From a virus: DNA of 64,000 bases. The DNA lies in the IMG/VR virus record IMGVR_UViG_3300023175_001502, positions 54,905-118,904 of that record. One strand, 5' to 3'. The position numbers and the translations under genes were made by a program. Every line of letters starts with the position of its first letter. Positions within the stretch are counted from its first letter, which is position 1. A model generated the notes under the pieces. It ran no database searches and had not been told where the DNA came from. It was given only the letters and a program-made list of their open reading frames with translations. Below are positions 719 to 58,150 of this stretch, one piece after another.

Positions 719-2286
719 TTTTTACCACCCTTCATGTTTGCACACCAGTGATACATCTTACCTCGTTCACCACTATACTTTTTTGCTTTTTTACGTAAAC
801 TAGTTACACTTCCGCTACAACTAGCACCTGCCTTTTTGACTCTGCCTGGGCGACTCTTGCCTTTCACTTTACCGTCTGCAAAGTTTTCTGCAAGTTCGGC
901 AACTTCATCTGGTACTTCAAATTGCCATACAGTTGCTTTACCGTCTTTTGCCATCATTGCTGTAAGTCTTGTGTTTCCGCCAATTAATTCTTTATAACCG
1001 TCGCTGTAAACAGCAACAATAGGCATTTCAACTGAACCTTTTTCTAATTGTGCTAACGCTCTTTTTTGTTTGTTTTTATCTAAACTTTTAAATGAATTAA
1101 TATCTGCGGCATCTGTATTGTTGATATCACTTGCATCTGTAATAGTTATTTCTTTACCCTTTTTTGCAAGTTCTATCCATGCTTGTTTTCCAATCTTGCG
1201 AAACTCAGGATAACGCTCTGCTTCGTCCCATTCTACATCTAGTTGTGGTTTTACAAAGTTTTCTGCTATCATTTCTTCTAATGAAGTGTCAATCATCCTA
1301 ACAGTTGCAAATTCTTCGCCCATAAGTCTTAGTGCATCAAATCTATGATGTCCGTTTACTATACGTCCTTTAGGATCAATAGTTAATGGACTATAGTTAC
1401 CGTCTTTAACCTTACTTAGTTGTTTTTCTAACTTACGTAAATCTCTGTTTCTTTGTACACTTTTAAGTTTACTAACTTTAATTTTACCTAGTTTGCCTTG
1501 ATTCTTTATTTGTGGAGGTGCTTCACCACCTGTAGGCTCATCATCAAAATGTGCATCTTGATAACCAGACGCATCTTGAACATCGTATCCTATACGTGCA
1601 AGTTGCTTCATTAGATACTTCGTTTCTTTTTCGCCAGCATACGGTGCAATAACAACATCAGGTTCGTCTACATTAGAACCTGCTGGCATTGACTTTAGAT
1701 TTGCTAAATTTGTACCAATTTTATAGTGATCATATGCTGTGTCAGACTTTGCTAAGAATGTGTTCTTAGGGTTAGGTATTGCTTTTCCTTCGCTGTACTT
1801 TGCTTTACGCTTTGCAATGGTTTTCTTACGCTTCATTTGCGGAGTTTCTAATGCTGCAATTACTTCGTTATAACCTTTAAGCATACTCATAAAGGCATCA
1901 TAGCCTGTACCACTTAGAACTTTTTCTACACCGTCTGCATTGTAATCTAAGTTATCAATAAAACCTTCTAGTCTTTGTTTTAATCTATTTTTAAGACCAT
2001 TTAGTGTATATACACCTACGCCTTTAACCCATACTTCTAAGTTATCTGGGTCAAAGTCTTTAACATCATGTATGTCAGCATACTTGCCTTCGGCAAGTCC
2101 TAAATTAAATAGTACATTAGTTGACTTACCTTTTACTTTACTACTAAGTGTAGGAGGATTGCCACCCTTGTCAACCTTGTTACCAAACTTTCCTGCTTCT
2201 TTAGGTATTTGATTTACATCCACATCTACTGTAGTGTTTACACCTTTTACAATTCTACCATCTTCTGCAAGTTCTTTAAACTTCAT
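715..2286 (-). CDS. ParB/Srx-like domain protein
   Basis: 523 residues from ATG 2286, chosen because it forms an ATGA overlap with the preceding stop; the frame also allows an ATG at 2340, but that would overlap the preceding gene by 58 bases. The N-terminus has the 'KGVNTTVDVDVNQIP' and 'KFGNKVDKGG' phrases I know from marine T4-like phages. The middle carries a ParB/Srx-type segment with 'GRIVNGHHRFDALRLMG' (the GHHR nucleotide-pocket box) and later 'LIGGNTRLTAMMA', a second copy of the same box. The C-terminus ends in a Lys/Cys segment ('GKMYHWCANMKGGKK') recurring in cyanophage proteins. ParB-like proteins bind or hydrolyse nucleotides or nick DNA; the actual role here is unknown. Confidence 0.8.
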   Translation of the reverse strand: MKFKELAEDGRIVKGVNTTVDVDVNQIPKEAGKFGNKVDKGGNPPTLSSKVKGKSTNVLFNLGLAEGKYADIHDVKDFDPDNLEVWVKGVGVYTLNGLKNRLKQRLEGFIDNLDYNADGVEKVLSGTGYDAFMSMLKGYNEVIAALETPQMKRKKTIAKRKAKYSEGKAIPNPKNTFLAKSDTAYDHYKIGTNLANLKSMPAGSNVDEPDVVIAPYAGEKETKYLMKQLARIGYDVQDASGYQDAHFDDEPTGGEAPPQIKNQGKLGKIKVSKLKSVQRNRDLRKLEKQLSKVKDGNYSPLTIDPKGRIVNGHHRFDALRLMGEEFATVRMIDTSLEEMIAENFVKPQLDVEWDEAERYPEFRKIGKQAWIELAKKGKEITITDASDINNTDAADINSFKSLDKNKQKRALAQLEKGSVEMPIVAVYSDGYKELIGGNTRLTAMMAKDGKATVWQFEVPDEVAELAENFADGKVKGKSRPGRVKKAGASCSGSVTSLRKKAKKYSGERGKMYHWCANMKGGKK

Positions 2287-2498
2287 TTCTTGCGTCCTCT
2301 GAATTGTACTGGTCCAGTCATGTACGGTTTTGAAAACCATAACTTAAACCATTCTGCATCACCAGGTTTTACACCTAGTTTCTTTTCTTTCTTTTTTAGT
2401 TCTGCGGCTGTGATAGATGGATTTTCATCTATCTTGTATTCTGAGTAGCCTTTGAATTCGTTTATGCCTGCTAACTTTTTGAGAACTTCGATGTCCAT
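2283..2498 (-). CDS. Conserved small phage protein
   Basis: 71 residues. It has the pattern 'KLAGINEFKGYS', then a helical ELKKKEKKLG segment and 'PGDAEWFKLWFSKPYMTG', which I recall as a recurring short protein of marine T4-like phages. It overlaps the upstream nucleotidyltransferase gene by 28 bases and the downstream gene by ATGA, so it is embedded in a coupled operon. Function unknown. Confidence 0.7.
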   Translation of the reverse strand: MDIEVLKKLAGINEFKGYSEYKIDENPSITAAELKKKEKKLGVKPGDAEWFKLWFSKPYMTGPVQFRGRKK

Positions 2499-3550
2499 GC
2501 GTCTTTATCTCCTTTAGCGGCTGCCTTTCTTCTAGCGGCTATTTTATCTTTAACAGAATCTTCTTCTGGTGGTCTTTTCTTTGTTACAGTTGTACGTTTA
2601 GGTGTCTTTGTAACAAAACCTAGTATTTCATTTATATCTTCATCAGTAATAGTATATGCTCTATCACCTCTAGTTTTAATTTCTTTACCTACAAGCATTT
2701 TAAGAACACGTGATAGTTTATCTATATCTTCTTCTTTTTCAATAGCGTCTTGTATCATTTTAGTAAGAAATGATCTTAATGATGCTTTATTAACAACTAA
2801 ATCACCTTCGTCTATATCTTTACCTTTAGCACGTTGATCGTCGACCCAGTCTTCATATTCTCGAGCACTTTGTACTTTGTCTGAATCTGGATCATAACCC
2901 ATTGCTATAAGTTCTTCTGAGCTTTTGTTAGGTTTTTCAGGACGTATGCCTTCTGTTGCTGGCTCTTTATCTTTGATACCCATACCGTTACGCACAGCAT
3001 CGTACATTGTTTGTGCTAGTTTAGGATCTGGTACACCTTGTGTAAATGCTTCTAGATTACCCTCAGCGGCAGCAAGTCTCATCTTGCTTGCACTCATTCC
3101 TTCGGCACCTTCTGCATCTGGGTCACGTGCTCCTGCACTTACAACTTTCAGTGTGTTAAATTCAAATGGTATTTTGCCTGATTTATCTGGCTTGCCATTG
3201 TATGTATCGAACATAGTTTGGAAGCCTTCTACTCTGTCGCTACCTGCAACAAATATAAGATCAGTATATCCTAAACCTTGGAGCATTTCTAATGCTTGCA
3301 CTGGTGTACGAACACTTTGGTGCCCTACATTAATACCAGGAAAAAACTTTTTGGCAAACTTTAATTTAGTAGCAAAATCTAATGGATCTGTTTTTGGCTT
3401 TTGTGTTTGCGACAAGAACAAATAATGATCGCCGTCGTGCTTTTTTATTTGATCCACAAGTTTGCTATGACCAATTGTTGGAGGATTAAGTCGACCAAAA
3501 GCAAGAACTGCCTTTTTTGCTGGTGCTTCAAACAGTTCTCGGAGAAACAT
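2471..3550 (-). CDS. Nucleotidyltransferase (cytidylyltransferase-like)
   Basis: 359 residues. The N-terminal ~190 residues form a Rossmann-like nucleotidyltransferase. 'FGRLNPPTIGH' (about residues 18-28) is the HxGH-type nucleotide-binding loop in its TxGH variant, and 'MSASKMR' (about residues 153-159) matches the ISSTxxR box. This family transfers NMP groups (NMNAT, PPAT and glycerol-3-P cytidylyltransferase relatives); the substrate cannot be told. The C-terminal ~170 residues are charged and helical with a basic tail, and I do not recognise them. The start ATG overlaps the preceding TAA (TAATG). Relatives are annotated in T4-like cyanophages as cytitidyltransferases. Confidence 0.8.
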   Translation of the reverse strand: MFLRELFEAPAKKAVLAFGRLNPPTIGHSKLVDQIKKHDGDHYLFLSQTQKPKTDPLDFATKLKFAKKFFPGINVGHQSVRTPVQALEMLQGLGYTDLIFVAGSDRVEGFQTMFDTYNGKPDKSGKIPFEFNTLKVVSAGARDPDAEGAEGMSASKMRLAAAEGNLEAFTQGVPDPKLAQTMYDAVRNGMGIKDKEPATEGIRPEKPNKSSEELIAMGYDPDSDKVQSAREYEDWVDDQRAKGKDIDEGDLVVNKASLRSFLTKMIQDAIEKEEDIDKLSRVLKMLVGKEIKTRGDRAYTITDEDINEILGFVTKTPKRTTVTKKRPPEEDSVKDKIAARRKAAAKGDKDAWTSKFSKS

Positions 3551-3879
3551 TAGTATTCCCCTTCTTCTATGTTCTTAATTTCCTCAGACTTAATACGTTC
3601 GATAATTGACTCTTGATCTACATCAGTAAACACACTTTGTGGAGGATCTAAATCATACTTTTTACAGTATGATTCCATTGCTGATTTTACTAAAGGCAAA
3701 AGAGCTTCATTAAAATTAATATCTTCACCAGCTCTAAACTTATCTGAAAGTAATGACATTACAGGATAGTATTCTTTTCTGTAAAACATGGGGTCGTTTT
3801 TCATATAACATTGGCAATCTTGTGCAACGTCATATGGTAAAGTAAATTCGTCTTTTTTATCTAGTTCAAAAAGTTTCAT
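3550..3879 (-). CDS. Conserved hypothetical protein
   Basis: 109 residues from ATG 3879, which has a good Shine-Dalgarno (AGGAAG, 8 bases upstream) and starts just after the preceding stop. A longer frame from 3951 would overlap that gene and lacks such a signal. The protein is acidic and mostly helical, with a DCQCYMKND segment. No known domain is recognised. It ends in TAATG with the nucleotidyltransferase, so it belongs to the same operon. Confidence 0.7.
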   Translation of the reverse strand: MKLFELDKKDEFTLPYDVAQDCQCYMKNDPMFYRKEYYPVMSLLSDKFRAGEDINFNEALLPLVKSAMESYCKKYDLDPPQSVFTDVDQESIIERIKSEEIKNIEEGEY

Positions 3880-4823: not shown

Positions 4824-5492
4824 TTATTTATCTATATTTTGCGTACTGATAACTCTTTGGACAGATTGGAAATTATGTCCAACAAGTAGACTGATAAGTT
4901 GTAAAACTTTTTCATCTCTAACATACATATACAAGTTGGGGGCAAATCCCTTTTTTACTTCTTCTAACGCTATTCTACCAATTTTTACTTTGTCCGAGTT
5001 GCGTGTAATCCAATTATGAAAGTTCTCATCTATAGTTCTTGCATTAAAATAAACTTTATATTCGTAATCAAACGGTCCGTTGACTAATAAAACATTTTTT
5101 TCAAGCAAGTTTAAGTGCTTTAAATTTGGTTGCCATAGTTCGTCTATCGTGATTTTACTACAAACATTATTAATAACACTATTACTGTTAGTATATAAGC
5201 ACATATCATTGCGCTCTATACGTAGTTTATACTCGTCGTGATCAAAATGCGAAAATAGGTTTAGTAAGATTTTTGCATCATCAAAATGCCTACGGTCAAT
5301 ATAACTTGTCCTATTAAACCCCCAAGTTTTAACAATTTGATGCTTATCGTCTACCATTTGCTGTAGTAGATCTATTTCTTTGCGAGCATAATTTAGATTT
5401 TTATCTCTAAAAATAACAGCAAGCTGGTTGTGTATTACCAGCTTGTACAGGTACTTGTTATAGAAAAGTTTTTTAGTTTCAAAGTTCAACAA
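4824..5492 (-). CDS. Hypothetical protein, TTG start
   Basis: 222 residues, rich in Lys, Tyr, Asn and Leu, with mixed alpha/beta character; no family recognised. No ATG exists near the N-terminus. The frame opens with two TTG codons (5492 and 5489) just after AGGGGA, which is the only plausible ribosome site. It overlaps the end of the clpA-like gene by 14 bases, so its translation is probably coupled to it. The last codons are provided by the downstream late promoter (Asp-Lys-stop). Confidence 0.65.
   Translation of the reverse strand: MLNFETKKLFYNKYLYKLVIHNQLAVIFRDKNLNYARKEIDLLQQMVDDKHQIVKTWGFNRTSYIDRRHFDDAKILLNLFSHFDHDEYKLRIERNDMCLYTNSNSVINNVCSKITIDELWQPNLKHLNLLEKNVLLVNGPFDYEYKVYFNARTIDENFHNWITRNSDKVKIGRIALEEVKKGFAPNLYMYVRDEKVLQLISLLVGHNFQSVQRVISTQNIDK
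4825..4832 (-). promoter_or_regulatory. Late promoter octamer GATAAATA, leaderless type
   Basis: GATAAATA, then ACTAT, then ATG 4819. If transcription starts 6 bases after the octamer, as in T4, the first base is the A of the ATG. The preceding gene ends in-frame through it as GAT AAA TAA. Confidence 0.75.
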
Positions 5493-7719
5493 GTGATTCC
5501 CCTAAACTTTCCAAGTATAGGCTTTCATCATCTTCGTTGAATTTAATTGTTACACTACCGCCAGATTTTAAATTACCAAAGAGTAATTCTTTTGATAGTG
5601 GACGTTTGATTTCATTATCAATTACTCTTGCTAACGGTCTTGCACCCATTTTAGGATCGAAACCTTTATCTACAAGATAGTCTAATGCTTCAGAATCAAC
5701 TTCGATCTTGACTCCTTTATCTTTTACCATGTCTTTAAGTTCAACTAAGAACTTACCAACTATCTTCAACATAATTTCTTTAGAAAGTTTCTTGAATATA
5801 ATAGTTGCATCAAGTCTGTTACGGAATTCTGGAGCAAAGAATTTCTTAAGTGCTTTATCTTCATATTCTAATTCAAACTCGTCGTTGAATCCAATTAGAT
5901 TTTTCTCTGCATCACTTGCACCTAGGTTAGTTGTAAGGATAAGAACACAATTACGTGCATCTGCTTCTTTACTGTTACTACCTGTAACTTTACCATTATC
6001 CATTAACTGTAGTAATATTTGTGAAACATCTGGGTGTGCCTTTTCGATTTCATCTAACAGTAACACACAGTTTGGATTTTCTTGTAGTTTTGTAATTAAC
6101 TGGCCAGCATCTTCTTCGTAACCTACATAACCTGGAGGCGACCCAATTAGTTTAGCAACACTGTGCTTCTCTTGATATTCACTCATATCAAAACGGACTA
6201 GTTTTACACCTAGTTGTTCTGCTAGTTGCTTGGCTGTTTCTGTTTTACCTGTACCGGTTGGCCCCATAAAGATAAAACTACCAATTGGCTTATCGTCAGG
6301 TTTAAGACCTGCTTGTGCAACAAGAATTTTATCAACAATTTTATCAATTGCTTCGTCTTGTCCATACACCGCTTTTTTCATGTTGGTTTCTAGATGTGCT
6401 AGATTACTTGTTTCTTTCTCTGCAATATTTTCAACAGGCATGTTAATCATCTTAGCAAGTTCAAATTGAATTTCTTCCTCTGTTACTAGTTTTTCAACTT
6501 CAGGATCTTTCAAATTAAATCTACTACATGCTACATCAATTAAGTCAATAGCCTTATCAGGAAGTTTTTTATCTGTTTGATACTTTACACTTAATTTTAC
6601 AGCAGCTTCAATTGCTTGCTCTGTGATTTGTGTTTTGTGATAGTCCTCATAGTACTTTTTAATACCACGTAGAATATCTTTTGCTACTTCTGCATTTGGC
6701 TCGTCAACTGTAACACGTTGGAAACGGCGCATCAATGCACGATCTTTTTCAAAGCTCTTACGGAATTCTTCCCAAGTAGTTGAAGCAACAACTTTTAAGT
6801 TACCTTTTGCAAGTGCTGGCTTTAACATATTAGCCAAATCGTTTGATTTGTCTTGCCCGCCTGCTCCTGCTCCGCTCATCATATGAGCTTCGTCGATAAA
6901 CATTACAGTTTTGCCTTTTTTCTGTAGTCCTTTGATGACTAACTTTAGACGTTCTTCAAAGTCTCCACGATATTTAGAGCCAGCGAGCATAGCACCAATA
7001 TCTAGATTGTATACTTCATACTCTTTTAGGAATTCTGGTACATCGTCATTTACAATTTTAAATGCTAAACCTTCTGCAATAGCGGTTTTACCAACACCTG
7101 GATCACCAACTAAAAGTACATTATTTTTTTGACGGCGTCCTAGTGCAAGAGCAATAGCATCTAGTTCTTCTGAACGTCCGATAATAGGATCTACACGTTG
7201 TTTTCTTACTTCGTCGTTTAGATTAGAAGTAAATGCACGAAGTGCTTTTGCGGCTGCACCGCTTAATTCTTCATCATCAAAGTCTTCATGCTCATTCGAA
7301 ATGTAATCTGCAAATCTGTCTTTAGAAATGCCTGCTTTTTCTATCCAATATGTAGCAATAGATTTCTTTTCATTTAGTATACTAATGAATACATCGCTTA
7401 GTTCTATTTGATTACGACCGCTAAATAGAACTTGAGTAAACGCTCTGTTTAGAACACGTTCAACAGCCTGTGTTTTTTTAGGCTTGTGCTTTGTTCCGTC
7501 AACTTTAATATCATCTAAAGCGGTTTTTAAATGATTTTCTAAATTAGATTTTATAAAGGCAGGGTCAGCACCATAACCTGTAACTATGTTTTCAAAGTTT
7601 TCTTCGCAAAGCATAGCGAATAGAATATGTTCAACTGTAACATACTCGTGTTGAAGTTTTCTAGCATCTGCGATTGCTTTTTCAAATACTAATTGTAGTT
7701 CTTTGCTTGGTTCAACCAT
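5479..7719 (-). CDS. clpA: ClpA-like AAA+ unfoldase
   Basis: 746 residues, the size of bacterial ClpA. Domains in order: Clp N-domain repeats (about 1-140), AAA-1 with Walker A GDPGVGKT (205-212) and Walker B MFIDEAH (~273-279), then AAA-2 with Walker A GPTGTGKT (486-493) and Walker B LLLDEIEKAH (~553-562). There is no long ClpB-type coiled-coil M-domain. An 'IGF' tripeptide (609-611) sits where ClpA and ClpX carry their ClpP-docking loop, so it should couple to host ClpP and redirect degradation rather than act as a pure disaggregase. The gene overlaps def (8 bases) and the next gene (14 bases), in an operon with def and a dnaJ-like gene. Confidence 0.92.
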   Translation of the reverse strand: MVEPSKELQLVFEKAIADARKLQHEYVTVEHILFAMLCEENFENIVTGYGADPAFIKSNLENHLKTALDDIKVDGTKHKPKKTQAVERVLNRAFTQVLFSGRNQIELSDVFISILNEKKSIATYWIEKAGISKDRFADYISNEHEDFDDEELSGAAAKALRAFTSNLNDEVRKQRVDPIIGRSEELDAIALALGRRQKNNVLLVGDPGVGKTAIAEGLAFKIVNDDVPEFLKEYEVYNLDIGAMLAGSKYRGDFEERLKLVIKGLQKKGKTVMFIDEAHMMSGAGAGGQDKSNDLANMLKPALAKGNLKVVASTTWEEFRKSFEKDRALMRRFQRVTVDEPNAEVAKDILRGIKKYYEDYHKTQITEQAIEAAVKLSVKYQTDKKLPDKAIDLIDVACSRFNLKDPEVEKLVTEEEIQFELAKMINMPVENIAEKETSNLAHLETNMKKAVYGQDEAIDKIVDKILVAQAGLKPDDKPIGSFIFMGPTGTGKTETAKQLAEQLGVKLVRFDMSEYQEKHSVAKLIGSPPGYVGYEEDAGQLITKLQENPNCVLLLDEIEKAHPDVSQILLQLMDNGKVTGSNSKEADARNCVLILTTNLGASDAEKNLIGFNDEFELEYEDKALKKFFAPEFRNRLDATIIFKKLSKEIMLKIVGKFLVELKDMVKDKGVKIEVDSEALDYLVDKGFDPKMGARPLARVIDNEIKRPLSKELLFGNLKSGGSVTIKFNEDDESLYLESLGESLVEL

Positions 7720-8218
7720 GTGGATATTTTTTCCTTAATTTTATTTGCTTCTTTCTTGCCATATCAAGTTTAAGGCGAGATACACGACTAGTAAATTCGA
7801 TACCCTGTAAGTGATCGTATTCATGTAAAAAACATCTTGCATCTATATCGTATAATTCTATTATACATTCTTTTTGCTGTGTGTCAAGATATTTTACAAC
7901 AATACCTCTAGGTCTACTAACCTTTAAAAACAAATTTGGATGACTTAAACACCCTTCTGGCATAGATTCTGCGTTTACTGTTACTTGCTCTATGCTTGGG
8001 TTAATAATTGTAAGTGGACTATTATCTTCTAGCAAATGCGGCTTCATAACAAAAATTTGTCCATTGAACCCAACTTGATTTGCACTCAATCCTATTCCGC
8101 CTTCTTGCTCCATAATTTCAAGCATTTCTTTGGAAATTTGTTCGGCATCGTGCTTTTCGAAATCAAAAGGATCTACAACCTTTTCTAACCACGGATCTGG
8201 AGATTTAATCAGTTTCAT
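7712..8218 (-). CDS. def: Peptide deformylase
   Basis: 168 residues, full length. It removes the N-formyl group from nascent proteins. All three family motifs are present: GIGLSANQ (41-48), EGCLS (88-92, Cys metal ligand) and HEYDHLQG (132-139, two His ligands and the catalytic Glu). The enzyme should therefore be active with Fe or Zn. Deformylases are known in marine phages, where they are thought to speed maturation of phage-expressed host-type proteins. It overlaps dnaJ upstream by 14 bases and clpA downstream by 8. Confidence 0.95.
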   Translation of the reverse strand: MKLIKSPDPWLEKVVDPFDFEKHDAEQISKEMLEIMEQEGGIGLSANQVGFNGQIFVMKPHLLEDNSPLTIINPSIEQVTVNAESMPEGCLSHPNLFLKVSRPRGIVVKYLDTQQKECIIELYDIDARCFLHEYDHLQGIEFTSRVSRLKLDMARKKQIKLRKKYPHG

Positions 8219-9044
8219 TGTTTATTATCTTTTTCATACTTTTTATATACTCTAACACCTGTGGGTTATCTATTTGTGGTATATGAGCATTTATTATTAT
8301 ATATGCGTTTCCACGCACACCATTACGTCTGTCTGGTAAGCCATGTTGTGCTATATTAAATCTACATCCTACCTTCGTTCCTTTAGGTATTTTAAGATCT
8401 AACTGTCTTCCTTCAAGTGTATCTACTATTATACTAGTTCCTGTAATTAAGTCAAGAGCATTTACAGAATATTCTCTATAAAGATTTATACCATCTCTTT
8501 GCCAATCTGTGTGAGGTAGAATTTGTATTTTAACATGTAAATCTCCTCTAGCAAATTGTAAGAAATCATCTCCTAAGCCTCCATATCTTATAGTATCACC
8601 ATCTCTAATACCAGGAGGTATGTTTATCTCAACTGTTTCGGTGTTGCCGCTTCTTAATTTATAACTTGCAATTAGATTCTTACCTTTGAGAACATCTTCA
8701 AGTGTTACTTTAGCGGCAATAGTAATATCCTTGTTTCTACGAGGAGGTGGTCTAAACGGGTCTGTACCGTTTCTAAACATTTGACCAAACAAGTCCTGTA
8801 TGTCAGGATTGACATTGTTAAAATCAAATCCTCTCTGATACTGTCCAAATTGGGGTTGAGGATTATCGTACTCAGCTCTCTTTTGCGGATCAATTAAAGT
8901 TTCATATGCATCTTTAATTTGCACAAACTTTTTACTATCACCGCCTTTGTCAGGATGATGCTTTGCCGCTAATTTTCTAAAAGCGGTTTTAATTTCTTTA
9001 TCGGTAGCTGTTTTAGATACGCCTAGTACGGAATAGTGGTCCAT
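8205..9044 (-). CDS. dnaJ: DnaJ/CbpA-like Hsp40 co-chaperone
   Basis: 279 residues. The N-terminal J-domain carries HPD at 30-32, needed to stimulate DnaK. Next comes a short Gly/Phe/Asn linker ending near residue 90 and two substrate-binding C-terminal domains ('IPPGIRDGDTIRYGGLGDD', 'LKIPKGTKVGCRFNI'). The Cys-rich zinc finger of DnaJ is absent, so the architecture is that of class II CbpA. It probably recruits host DnaK. It is the first gene of the dnaJ-def-clpA operon, with no recognised promoter immediately upstream. Confidence 0.93.
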   Translation of the reverse strand: MDHYSVLGVSKTATDKEIKTAFRKLAAKHHPDKGGDSKKFVQIKDAYETLIDPQKRAEYDNPQPQFGQYQRGFDFNNVNPDIQDLFGQMFRNGTDPFRPPPRRNKDITIAAKVTLEDVLKGKNLIASYKLRSGNTETVEINIPPGIRDGDTIRYGGLGDDFLQFARGDLHVKIQILPHTDWQRDGINLYREYSVNALDLITGTSIIVDTLEGRQLDLKIPKGTKVGCRFNIAQHGLPDRRNGVRGNAYIIINAHIPQIDNPQVLEYIKSMKKIINNETD

Positions 9045-18701: not shown

Positions 18702-19103
18702 TTATTGGTTTATAAATGATCCAGGATCGATTGTTGCAGGACCGTCTGAGTATTCTGCACCGATCTGTACACTTTCTGGTTTTTCATCTGAGTAAGCAAG
18801 TACAGCGGTTTCTTCAATCATACGAATTTCTCGTTCGCCATCGTCGGTTTCTATTTTCATACCACGTGTCCACCGACCGTGTTCGATTAAAATCCAGTCT
18901 CCTACCGAATACTCATCTTTGTTGTCAGGGCCTTTAGAATAAACACGAGCCCAGCGAGGATATATTCCTCTAGTTTTACCATCGTCGTTGCCGAGGATAA
19001 TGCCACCTTTAGTAACCTGTTCGCCAAAATGCATATCAGTTACTAGTACTCTTTTCCCAATAGCTCTTGGGTTGCCTTTTATTGCATTTATATTTTTAAC
19101 CAT
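18702..19103 (-). CDS. GroES/gp31-like co-chaperonin
   Basis: 133 residues. 'AIGKRVLVTDMHFGEQVTKGGIIL' (about residues 14-37) mimics the GroES barrel start and mobile loop, whose GGIxL binds GroEL. 'YSVGDWILIEHGRWTRG' matches the later barrel strands. The C-terminal ~25 residues are an acidic extra. In T4 the equivalent gp31 folds the capsid protein with host GroEL; marine T4-like phages carry relatives. It overlaps the next upstream gene by TAATG. Confidence 0.8.
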   Translation of the reverse strand: MVKNINAIKGNPRAIGKRVLVTDMHFGEQVTKGGIILGNDDGKTRGIYPRWARVYSKGPDNKDEYSVGDWILIEHGRWTRGMKIETDDGEREIRMIEETAVLAYSDEKPESVQIGAEYSDGPATIDPGSFINQ

Positions 19104-25134: not shown

Positions 25135-27402
25135 ATGGCAAGACCATCTTTTAGAAATATAGGACTACGCAGAGATTTAAACCTTTCTGACTTATCTAAC
25201 AAAGATCAAGCACTAAACAATGTGCTAAACAACCTTGTTGTAGGTAGTGATAATAAGGTTTTTACAGGCGGCGATCTAGATGCTATTAAAGGAATAAGCA
25301 ATAGCACAGTAACTAATAGAGATATCGGCCTAATGGCAGGACTTGCTGTAAAAAATACTGTATTAAACGAAGATAACGAACTAGAAGATGTAATAGCATC
25401 TCCAGTTATTACAGTAAAAAATCAATTAGACACTATTATCGCAACTACTAATGATCCACCATTCTTTAATGGAGGAGACGGTTTAATTGCTAGATTTTAT
25501 GAAACTGATCAGATTAGCCAAAATTTAACAAAAAATAGTACAGGTGCTACTATTGTTACAGGAGATCCTACGGTTACTAAGCCTTATTGGAATAATGGTG
25601 TTTTTGAATTCAGTAACAAATTAGACGATACACTCGGTGGTGCAAACGGACTAATACAATGGAGCGGATATTATGTTCCGGATGCAAGTGGACCTAGCAC
25701 ATTTAGTTTTTCAACAACAGGTTTAGTTATGTTTGAAGTTGCAGATGAATTTGGAGATTTACAAGTAGTTCAAAATACATTTGCAGAAGATAGACCAATT
25801 GAACATTTAAGTGCAATGACAAGCCAAACAGATGTTACAGTAGATCCTATTGATGCAAGAACTGTAGTTATTGGCGACCAAATAATTGCGGCTGTAGATG
25901 ATCAAGGTACTCCTATACTCGCAGCTGAAATTAGTAATGGTTTATTTGTAGATGGCGTAGGTAATAGCACAATAACACTTAACCAATCTGTTACAGCACC
26001 TGCTGGTTCTACATTTACGTATAGCATACAAAATAAAATCGGAAGTGAAAGTTTTAGTTTTATACATACAGAAGCAAATCTTGAAAAATATGTTCCTGTC
26101 CAAATCAGATTAACATATTGGTATGCTTCGGAAAGTGCAAATTATTTTAACAAATTTATTGATTGCAATTTATCTACAAATATTAAAGATAGTGGAGATT
26201 GGCCTTACTGGTATCTCTATCAAGACGTACCAGTAGACTTTGAAGAAGACAGTTTTAAAGGATTTTACGATAAAAGATTACTTGTAGGCGGAGGTACTAT
26301 TGGACCTGAAGATGTAAACTTTAGTACGCAATACGCAAAATGGTTAAGTATTTCACCATTGACTGTTACATATGCGCCACCATTAAGATATGCTGACGCA
26401 CTTAAAGCAGAGTATACCTACACGTTAACGCAAGATAGTAACGTTTTAGCAACAACTTCGACAAGCCCATATACTGATAATATAGAGATAGGCAATAAGA
26501 TAATCACTCCTGCTCTTACAAAAGGCACTAGCGTTAGTGATATTTCAAGAAATAATATTGTAATTGCTAATGCAACAGCATCGGCGGATGCTACAGTTCC
26601 TGTAAGATTTATGGATCATAGAGGATTTTTAGATGTACAAGCAGGAACGTCGAATAATTTTAATGTTACTATTACTACCACTGAAGGGTTAAAAGTAGGA
26701 ACGGTAGTAGTTGCGGCAAGTAATCCTGCAGGCACAGATTATATAAGAGTTACTAGCATAGTTAGTATTCGTGAATTTACTACAAACATTGCTATGAATT
26801 TAAACGGATTAGAAGAAGTATTTTTCTATGCAGATAAAGGTCTTCTTAACAATAGTTTAGATAATTTTTGTGTAGGAACATTAGGACGAGAACTTACACA
26901 AACCGCAACAGTTGGTTCTAATCAACTAGTTTTAAATGATGTAAATGGATTTGGCCTAAACAATGTTATACAAAGTAGTCCTTACCTACCTGCTGTAGAT
27001 GAAAATGATCCTACGACTTTAACTAGAATTACAGCCATAGATACTAACACAAATACAATAACGATTAATAAAACAGTTCAAGCACCGGACGATATGGTTG
27101 CTGGTACTACTGTAGTTATTTGTCCTACTGACACAACACAAAATAAAGAAGCATGTGTTATTCCTTTAAACACAGCGCCACCTTTTGTAGGAACATTAAA
27201 CGGACTTAGAACTACAGATGGTCTAGGTGCTACAGTTGGACTACAAATGATTAATGGTAACAGTGTGTTAAAGGTAAGAGATCTTGTTGCTGAAAACTGT
27301 AATGTTACACAATTAGGAATAGGGGTAACAAATAATTTTGATAGAACTGTTCCTATTACGTTTAATGGTACAGTTTACAAAGTATTAGCATCAACTAGTT
27401 AA
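25135..27402 (+). CDS. Virion protein with PA14-like segment
   Basis: 755 residues from ATG 25135 (AAGGAG 7 bases upstream). After an N-terminal ~115-residue helical part, residues ~120-230 read like a PA14 carbohydrate-binding domain: GDGLIARFYE, then IQWSGYYVPDASGPSTFSFS, and later VPVQIRLTYWYASES. The C-terminal half is beta-rich and ends in FNGTVYKVLASTS. It is the only large structural gene on the plus strand and shares its last 12 bases with the convergent gene 27391-28395. Confidence 0.75.
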   Translation: MARPSFRNIGLRRDLNLSDLSNKDQALNNVLNNLVVGSDNKVFTGGDLDAIKGISNSTVTNRDIGLMAGLAVKNTVLNEDNELEDVIASPVITVKNQLDTIIATTNDPPFFNGGDGLIARFYETDQISQNLTKNSTGATIVTGDPTVTKPYWNNGVFEFSNKLDDTLGGANGLIQWSGYYVPDASGPSTFSFSTTGLVMFEVADEFGDLQVVQNTFAEDRPIEHLSAMTSQTDVTVDPIDARTVVIGDQIIAAVDDQGTPILAAEISNGLFVDGVGNSTITLNQSVTAPAGSTFTYSIQNKIGSESFSFIHTEANLEKYVPVQIRLTYWYASESANYFNKFIDCNLSTNIKDSGDWPYWYLYQDVPVDFEEDSFKGFYDKRLLVGGGTIGPEDVNFSTQYAKWLSISPLTVTYAPPLRYADALKAEYTYTLTQDSNVLATTSTSPYTDNIEIGNKIITPALTKGTSVSDISRNNIVIANATASADATVPVRFMDHRGFLDVQAGTSNNFNVTITTTEGLKVGTVVVAASNPAGTDYIRVTSIVSIREFTTNIAMNLNGLEEVFFYADKGLLNNSLDNFCVGTLGRELTQTATVGSNQLVLNDVNGFGLNNVIQSSPYLPAVDENDPTTLTRITAIDTNTNTITINKTVQAPDDMVAGTTVVICPTDTTQNKEACVIPLNTAPPFVGTLNGLRTTDGLGATVGLQMINGNSVLKVRDLVAENCNVTQLGIGVTNNFDRTVPITFNGTVYKVLASTS

Positions 27403-54084: not shown

Positions 54085-55189
54085 CATATATTTTTCCTGC
54101 GAAGTCTTTTGCCATTGAGTTATAATCTTCTGTTGCTAGACCATATTTGTATAGGTCAATACTAGCAAGATTCTTAGACTTAGACTCGACCATAATGTCT
54201 GCGTAATCTAAAAATTCTAATGCCCAGTCGTTAACAGCATTATTCCACATAAAGTCAGAATGTGCTCTAAGTTTTTGCTTCTTAAAGCCTTGCTCTAATA
54301 GCGAATCCATATTAGGTAAAGAGTTATCATCATGGTCTACTAGTAGATCTTCGCGTGAAACTGAGTAATGAATAACAGGTCTTACTCCACGCCAACTGTC
54401 AACTATACGTAAAAATCTATCGTCGGTGGGCGATATGTATTCTCCACTAGCAACCCAGTGGTGGTGTATGTCCAATACGAGAGCGACATGCTTTTCAAGT
54501 TCGAGGCTTGCGTCAATGCCCCAAGACATTTCGTCGTTTTCGATTGTGATTGCGTTTCGCGCTTCTGGCGAGAGTCTCGGTAAGACGTCGATGATGCCTT
54601 GTGGACCTTTTCGACCCGATATGTGTACGTTGCATTTAAAGTCTTGGAAGGTGCGGCCGTATCCCATCCAGCGCAAGACATCGGTGTGATATTCAAATTC
54701 TTCTATGCTCCTCTCAACAATTTCCGGATTATCCGAGGCAAGTACAGTAAATTGTCCCGGATGCATTGATAGTCGGACGTCAAGGGCTCTTGCGGTTTCT
54801 CCAACTTTTGCGAATTCTTTTTCACAGTATGCAACCACATCCGGCTTGCGCCAAAAATAACACCAAGTAGGCTCGGTATAAACAGGAAGTACATCACTAC
54901 CCAATCTGACCATTCTAAGTTGAGGGGGAAGACTTCCAACATATTCAATCAACCTTCTGTATGACGCTATGTTGTGGACCATAATGTCCCACAAGCGTTC
55001 TTCAGCAACATCACGTGTTTGCCTATTGAGCCACGCAACTGTTGTGCTACGAGTATTTAGTGGTCGCTGTATCTCCTCAAGCAATTTCTTCTTCTGTGTT
55101 TGATCAGGATACATGTATTTGCATGCAAAACCTATGCGTTTTTGTTGTGCTTTCAAAAAGTCACCTGCTGTTGTAAATTTTAAATCCAT
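54080..55189 (-). CDS. uvsE: UV damage endonuclease UvsE/UvdE
   Basis: 369 residues from ATG 55189, overlapping the preceding stop as TAATG. The TIM-barrel signatures are there: RIGFACKY near the start, RLSMHPGQF (~res 140), NVHISGRKG, ITIENDEMSW (metal-binding Glu/Asp) and ALVLDIHHHW (His ligands), then 'LRAHSDFMW'. It nicks DNA 5' of UV photoproducts and some abasic sites, giving excision repair without UvrABC. Last gene of the QueD-GT-PMM-UvsE unit. Confidence 0.93.
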   Translation of the reverse strand: MDLKFTTAGDFLKAQQKRIGFACKYMYPDQTQKKKLLEEIQRPLNTRSTTVAWLNRQTRDVAEERLWDIMVHNIASYRRLIEYVGSLPPQLRMVRLGSDVLPVYTEPTWCYFWRKPDVVAYCEKEFAKVGETARALDVRLSMHPGQFTVLASDNPEIVERSIEEFEYHTDVLRWMGYGRTFQDFKCNVHISGRKGPQGIIDVLPRLSPEARNAITIENDEMSWGIDASLELEKHVALVLDIHHHWVASGEYISPTDDRFLRIVDSWRGVRPVIHYSVSREDLLVDHDDNSLPNMDSLLEQGFKKQKLRAHSDFMWNNAVNDWALEFLDYADIMVESKSKNLASIDLYKYGLATEDYNSMAKDFAGKIYA

Positions 55190-57825: not shown

Positions 57826-58137
57826 TTATTTATTGTTGTTTATATCTTCTTTTAAGACAGTAATGTCTTGCTTAACTTCTTTAAATTTTTCAGCCGCTTG
57901 AGACATTAATTCAACAACAGAGGAAATTTTATCTATTGCCCACCACCACCAAATTGCGGCGACGAACATAAAAGTACAAGTGCCTGTTAAAATAAGCCAA
58001 TAATATGTTTCATGAGCTCCTAGCCAATACGAAATCGCTAGAGCTATAAAGCCTGTCATGGGAAGTACACTGCCTATTATTTTCCAAATAAGTGCCTGTT
58101 TTTTAGTTTGTTTTTTTAATAAGTCAAAGTTAGTCAT
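57826..58137 (-). CDS. Two-span membrane protein with coiled-coil tail
   Basis: 103 residues: a basic N-terminus, two hydrophobic segments (about 20-40 and 47-68) divided by a GAHETYYW loop, the second rich in Trp (IWWWWAIDK), and a cytoplasmic coiled-coil tail (about 75-102). ATG 58137 is 5 bases after a late octamer. Unknown role. Confidence 0.62.
   Translation of the reverse strand: MTNFDLLKKQTKKQALIWKIIGSVLPMTGFIALAISYWLGAHETYYWLILTGTCTFMFVAAIWWWWAIDKISSVVELMSQAAEKFKEVKQDITVLKEDINNNK
57827..57834 (-). promoter_or_regulatory. Late promoter octamer AATAAATA, leaderless type
   Basis: AATAAATA, then ATTGT, then ATG 57821. The preceding gene ends through it as AAT AAA TAA. Confidence 0.7.
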
Positions 58138-58142
58138 ACTAA

Positions 58143-58150
58143 TATTTATA
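58143..58150 (-). promoter_or_regulatory. Late promoter octamer TATAAATA, leaderless type
   Basis: The canonical T4 octamer TATAAATA, then TTAGT, then ATG 58137. Confidence 0.78.

Follow-up and report, generated by a model that had tools for sequence, protein, structure and literature searches.

The DNA considered here is a window of 64,000 nucleotides from an uncultured virus (positions 54,905 to 118,904 of the IMG/VR record IMGVR_UViG_3300023175_001502), whose minus strand carries overlapping genes for a DnaJ protein, a peptide deformylase, and a ClpA-like AAA+ unfoldase. On the basis of sequence comparisons, we consider it probable (about 0.7) that the phage encodes a complete ClpAPS protease of its own, for which this operon provides the unfoldase and the front end. 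The original prediction, which was made from the window alone, had proposed that the phage ClpA may hijack host ClpP to destroy chosen host proteins. This is not the best reading, as the same virus encodes both ClpP and ClpS and therefore has no need to borrow a host protease; host hijack was consequently dropped as the leading mechanism once these two genes had been found.

The three genes lie on the minus strand with the coordinates, lengths, and overlapping arrangement that had been predicted. The dnaJ gene (8205-9044, 279 residues) overlaps the deformylase gene (7712-8218, 168 residues) by 14 bases, which in turn overlaps clpA (5479-7719, 746 residues) by 8 bases. The ClpA-like protein has two AAA+ modules besides a Clp_N and a D2-small domain, and its Pfam matches all exceed the cut-offs (Clp_N 39.4 bits, AAA_2 181 bits, and ClpB_D2-small 91.8 bits). 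The two Walker A/B pairs, the two pore loops, and the Arg motifs can all be recognized and hardly vary across the alignment of viral ClpAs, which together with the Pfam matches bears out the proposed ClpA-like unfoldase with two Walker pairs. The predicted lack of a ClpB M-domain also holds: residues 6-733 are colinear with Escherichia coli ClpA, with no M-domain insertion, and ClpB models match the protein only as two split stretches.

The IGF tripeptide at residues 609-611 (5887-5895, minus strand) aligns with the IGL of E. coli ClpA (617-619) and thus stands, as had been claimed, at the position of the ClpP-docking loop. IGL-type tripeptides dock into clefts on ClpP (PMC7707817). Among 71 distinct viral ClpAs, the G and the F are found in all 71 and the I in 70, while the flanking loop is highly variable at 608 and 612-618 (entropy of 1.4-2.9 bits). 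A tripeptide this constant between such variable flanks argues strongly for selection on docking and against chance; as judged from the alignment, the loop is under strong purifying selection. In the AlphaFold2 (AF2) monomer model of ClpA, which is of moderate quality overall (predicted local distance difference test, pLDDT, of 73), the loop at 601-624 has low confidence; this suggests that the loop is flexible, and the model says nothing beyond that. Furthermore, the residues equivalent to E28, T81, and R86 of E. coli ClpA, which we take to be ClpS contacts, are invariant in the viral alignment (A2).

The window belongs to a linear record of 118,904 bases from a relative of the giant phages, and this record covers only part of a large phage genome. 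The most similar DNA polymerases are those of the phages Phosso (469 kb, the closest) and Atu_ph07 (490 kb), and ClpAs that are 71-76% identical to that of the window sit on records as long as 357 kb. Searched alone, the window record yields neither ClpP nor ClpS, which is an artefact of the fragment. A second contig, G001 (IMGVR_UViG_3300018428_002563; L092), shares with it a reversed overlap of 71 kb at 99.95-100% identity and extends 28.6 kb beyond its end; by this overlap, the two are the same virus. On G001, clpP (26095-26682, 195 residues) shares the strand of clpA and begins 1,967 bases beyond the last base of the window, and clpS is located at 2202-2513.

The ClpP of G001 matches PF00574 with 266.9 bits over a full-length S14 fold and carries the catalytic triad S98/H123/D174 (97/122/171 in E. 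coli); none of the eight viral ClpPs has lost the Ser-His-Asp triad. Among the positions that we assume to form the docking cleft of E. coli ClpP, L48, F49, Y62, F82, I90, and L114 are kept in the virus, and Y60 and F112 are changed. The ClpS protein has a ClpS fold (PF02617, 92.7 bits). Its presumed N-degron pocket retains N34, D35, T38, M40, V43, and H66 (E. coli numbering), and D36 is replaced by E and V65 by I. Both proteins look functional from their sequences. ClpP was found in eight of the 46 mostly fragmentary relatives that were scanned for it and for deformylase, and ClpS in 6 of the 15 long records (all possibly incomplete) that were searched for partner genes. One record of 357 kb encodes ClpA, ClpP, ClpS, DnaJ, and deformylase, and wherever clpS, clpP, and the dnaJ-clpA block occur on one record they follow each other in that order. 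No ClpX was detected in the 15 long records, where all matches to ClpX models fall within clpA; ClpA is therefore the only phage unfoldase seen for the phage ClpP.

Several observations on the neighborhood of these genes can be added. Two types of ClpP exist in the virus family, with an intact triad in both: one (L086-L091) is E. coli-like, and the other (L084-L085) carries 10 extra residues inserted in its handle region and reads HRVSSGT instead of HQPSGG. The phage clpP is adjoined by a gene for a membrane protein of the Bax-inhibitor-1/YccA type in L085 (792-1511, minus strand; PF01027, 180 bits) and in L089 (807-1481, minus strand; similar by eye). Bacterial YccA modulates FtsH, and the phage may therefore affect membrane proteolysis as well. 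The clpS gene lies in a block at 1636-3755 of G001 in the order Hsp20, ClpS, heme oxygenase, and ferredoxin-dependent bilin reductase, which recurs in L097-L099 and, without the reductase, in L100. Through this block, the Clp adaptor is connected with a small heat-shock protein and with a bilin pathway, and the closest heme oxygenase from an isolated phage is that of Pelagibacter phage Mosig (44.6%).

Some findings weigh against a self-contained phage protease. ClpP and ClpS are encoded outside the window record, so their assignment to this virus rests on the long, near-identical overlap with one other contig, and clpP lies tens of kb from clpA, outside the operon. In the presumed docking cleft of ClpP, Y60 and F112 (E. 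coli) are N and K in the virus, and docking could therefore be altered. Leu/Phe transferase, which would create N-degrons, was not found in the 15 long records. Finally, the ClpA-like protein scores 866 bits against TIGR02639, below the NCBI equivalog cut-off of 993 bits. This cut-off is a naming threshold, and the protein is therefore called ClpA-like and not a bacterial ClpA equivalog, with which its assignment to PHROG 4871 (expect value, E, of 7e-246) agrees.

If the protease works as proposed, hexamers of the phage ClpA would dock on the phage ClpP through their IGF loops, and ClpS would deliver proteins with destabilizing N-termini to ClpA. DnaJ would pass its clients to host DnaK, while the deformylase would process freshly synthesized phage proteins at their N-termini. 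Such a set could fold, trim, or destroy proteins during a long infection in which many large virion proteins are made. The protease could act on proteins of the host, on misfolded ones of the phage, or on both.

Host ClpP could nevertheless be involved if the phage ClpA docks on it and redirects it, with the phage ClpP being secondary or part of mixed rings. This would fit the conserved IGF loop, since loops of this kind are known to target the docking clefts of bacterial ClpP (PMC7707817), and some long relatives have no ClpP in their sequenced part. Those records may be incomplete, however, and not only this virus but many of its relatives encode ClpP together with ClpS, so that we regard a redirection of host ClpP as unlikely. 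A role of ClpA in virion assembly, as a protease-independent unfoldase or translocase acting with DnaJ and the GroES-like protein described below, appears very unlikely. An assembly role has been proposed for the ClpA of jumbo phages (PMC7824862), and 121Q-like phages have clpA among their structural genes, with a loop that has drifted to IGM or IGV. Selection on assembly alone, however, would not explain an IGF that is invariant amid varying loop residues, and ClpP and ClpS are co-encoded. That the phage ClpP is a prohead protease unlinked to ClpA is hardly credible: although several of its homologs are labeled head maturation protease in phage records, it is a full-length ClpP of the cellular type (E of about 1e-75 to bacterial PDB chains) co-encoded with ClpA and ClpS, whereas prohead proteases are far more distant, giving partial matches of 25-35% identity.

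The proposed ClpAPS protease is accompanied in this virus by further proteins predicted to act on folding and maturation. The deformylase is complete, as had been predicted, with matches to PF01327 (139.5 bits) and TIGR00079 (above its cut-off) and all three active-site motifs (GIGLSANQ, EGCLS, and HEYDH, corresponding to the patterns GxGLxANQ, EGCLS, and HExxH). The DnaJ protein combines a J-domain that contains the HPD motif (PF00226, 80.5 bits) with a DnaJ_C domain (PF01556, 106.7 bits) and has no zinc finger or cysteine-rich domain, which agrees with its proposed assignment to class II. The dnaJ gene is present in all 64 relatives with enough flanking sequence. The deformylase gene adjoins clpA in only 38 out of 72 relatives with enough flank and was found anywhere in 23 of the 46 scanned relatives; in the 357 kb record, it lies about 190 kb away from clpA. 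Deformylase is thus an optional member of the operon.

The original prediction had also noted a gp31/GroES-like co-chaperonin gene nearby (18702-19103, minus strand, 133 residues). Its protein matches PHROG 931 (head morphogenesis) with an E of 1.9e-15, yet its Cpn10 score (20.3 bits) falls just under the cut-off of 21.1. Neither GroEL nor Hsp70 was detected in the 15 long records, and host DnaK and GroEL are therefore the probable partners of DnaJ and the GroES-like protein. Of the suggested takeover of the host's folding and degradation machinery, the use of host partners is hence the best reading for the folding proteins, but it is not supported for degradation, since this virus encodes both ClpP and ClpS.

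The T4-like late-promoter motif TATAAATA was not found at the DnaJ-deformylase-ClpA operon. In the 64-kb window as a whole it is strongly depleted, with one copy versus 10.3 expected (standard deviation of 3.3). This sole copy (58143-58150, minus strand) lies immediately upstream of the open reading frame at 57826-58137.

A viral origin of the overlapping proteostasis operon is supported by its distribution and by phylogeny. Among the closest cellular ClpAs, the 75 loci that are genuinely bacterial carry neither a deformylase gene next to clpA nor a neighboring dnaJ operon, and a weak DnaJ match occurs nearby in just two of them, on the opposite strand only. In the tree, the viral ClpA family forms one clade (100/100) that adjoins bacterial ClpA and is separate from both bacterial ClpA and other phage ClpAs. 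Five cellular records (L103-L107, filed as metagenome-assembled genomes of Neomarinimicrobiota, Halobacteroidaceae, Pacearchaeota, Pelagibacter, and Rickettsiales) encode ClpAs that are 52-72% identical and contain pieces of this operon, among them the P5 gene described below. As they also group within the viral clade, they probably represent virus contigs that were mis-binned. The possibility that the operon is ordinary host DNA, which would have undone the phage link, was rejected on these grounds. Conversely, the contig CAKLQF020000008.1 (L186), deposited as Acinetobacter phage MD-2021a, carries argC, aroF, and clpS-clpA; its ClpA groups with bacteria, and it looks like a bacterial contig.

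A fourth overlapping gene, which the original prediction did not mention, shares 14 bases with the 3' end of clpA and encodes P5 (4824-5492, minus strand, 222 residues). P5 directly follows clpA in all 79 relatives with enough flank and was detected even where ClpA identity is 52-55%. Its AF2 model is of high confidence (pLDDT of 95.5). A structure search of the PDB gave no match at E≤0.001, and the matches in BFVD are exclusively uncharacterized viral or phage proteins, one of them from Atu_ph07. A pattern scan of cellular genomes, made with one pattern only, found no P5, although the mis-binned records mentioned above do contain it. The genes downstream of P5 and clpA are also conserved, in 79-96% of the relatives, so adjacency alone does not show that P5 acts with ClpA, and its value as proof of function is weakened. 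The idea that the C-terminal motif of P5 is a tag common to several proteins was rejected, as no other copy was found in the window or in the fetched relatives. P5 is a conserved viral protein and a candidate new Clp adaptor. Tentatively, and at rather long odds, it might be a phage-specific adaptor or regulator of ClpA that redirects the phage ClpAP to chosen host or phage proteins beside the N-degron route of ClpS.

Discussions of phage Clp proteins often assume host partners. A 2021 survey, for example, which recorded ClpP, ClpS, ClpA, and DnaJ among jumbo phages, proposed that the ClpS of a phage supplies the ClpAP of its host (PMC7824862). In the window family, the unfoldase, the peptidase, and the N-degron adaptor are found together, with a conserved docking loop and degron pocket, which turns targeted proteolysis run by the phage into a direct biochemical question; the isolated relative Phosso could be used for genetics.

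The gene set itself is already known from other phages. Agrobacterium jumbo phage Atu_ph07 was described in 2018 with ClpA, ClpP, ClpS, ClpX, ClpB, and DnaJ (PMC6102473). Like the window virus, it has ClpA beside DnaJ, its own ClpS, an IGF loop, and a ClpP that is 70.5% identical. It differs by having ClpX and ClpB, by lacking a deformylase gene between dnaJ and clpA, by a ClpA that is only about 41% identical, and by the absence of a detectable P5 gene after clpA. Sinorhizobium phage Phosso (PV764938) shares the order DnaJ-deformylase-ClpA, ClpS, and a ClpP with 72.6% identity, but its ClpA is only 43% identical and falls in a separate clade, and the gene after clpA encodes a shorter hypothetical protein (about 117 residues) that is not matched by the P5 model. 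In Pseudomonas phage PA5oct and its relatives (Wroclawvirus), adjacent DnaJ and ClpA genes, ClpP, ClpS, and the IGF loop are likewise present, whereas a deformylase gene between dnaJ and clpA is missing and ClpA sits on a separate, distant branch. Distant jumbo phages that encode ClpP have thus kept DnaJ and ClpA side by side, with ClpS matched in Phosso and PA5oct. Unlike in the window virus, the loop has drifted in phages 121Q and phiKp_21 (IGM and IGV). As far as they are described in the 2013 ISME Journal work cited in PMC7162821, viral deformylases of the cyanophage type are comparable to that of the window as phage deformylases with complete active-site motifs, while the window gene differs in overlapping dnaJ and clpA. 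The ClpAPS system of E. coli shares the domain plan, the IGL/IGF docking loop, the ClpP triad, and the ClpS pocket, and the window system is distinguished from it by being viral, by being encoded with DnaJ and deformylase, and by some changed residues in the ClpP cleft. Within a gene set known from Atu_ph07 and Phosso, the window family therefore represents a new and apparently common aquatic branch.

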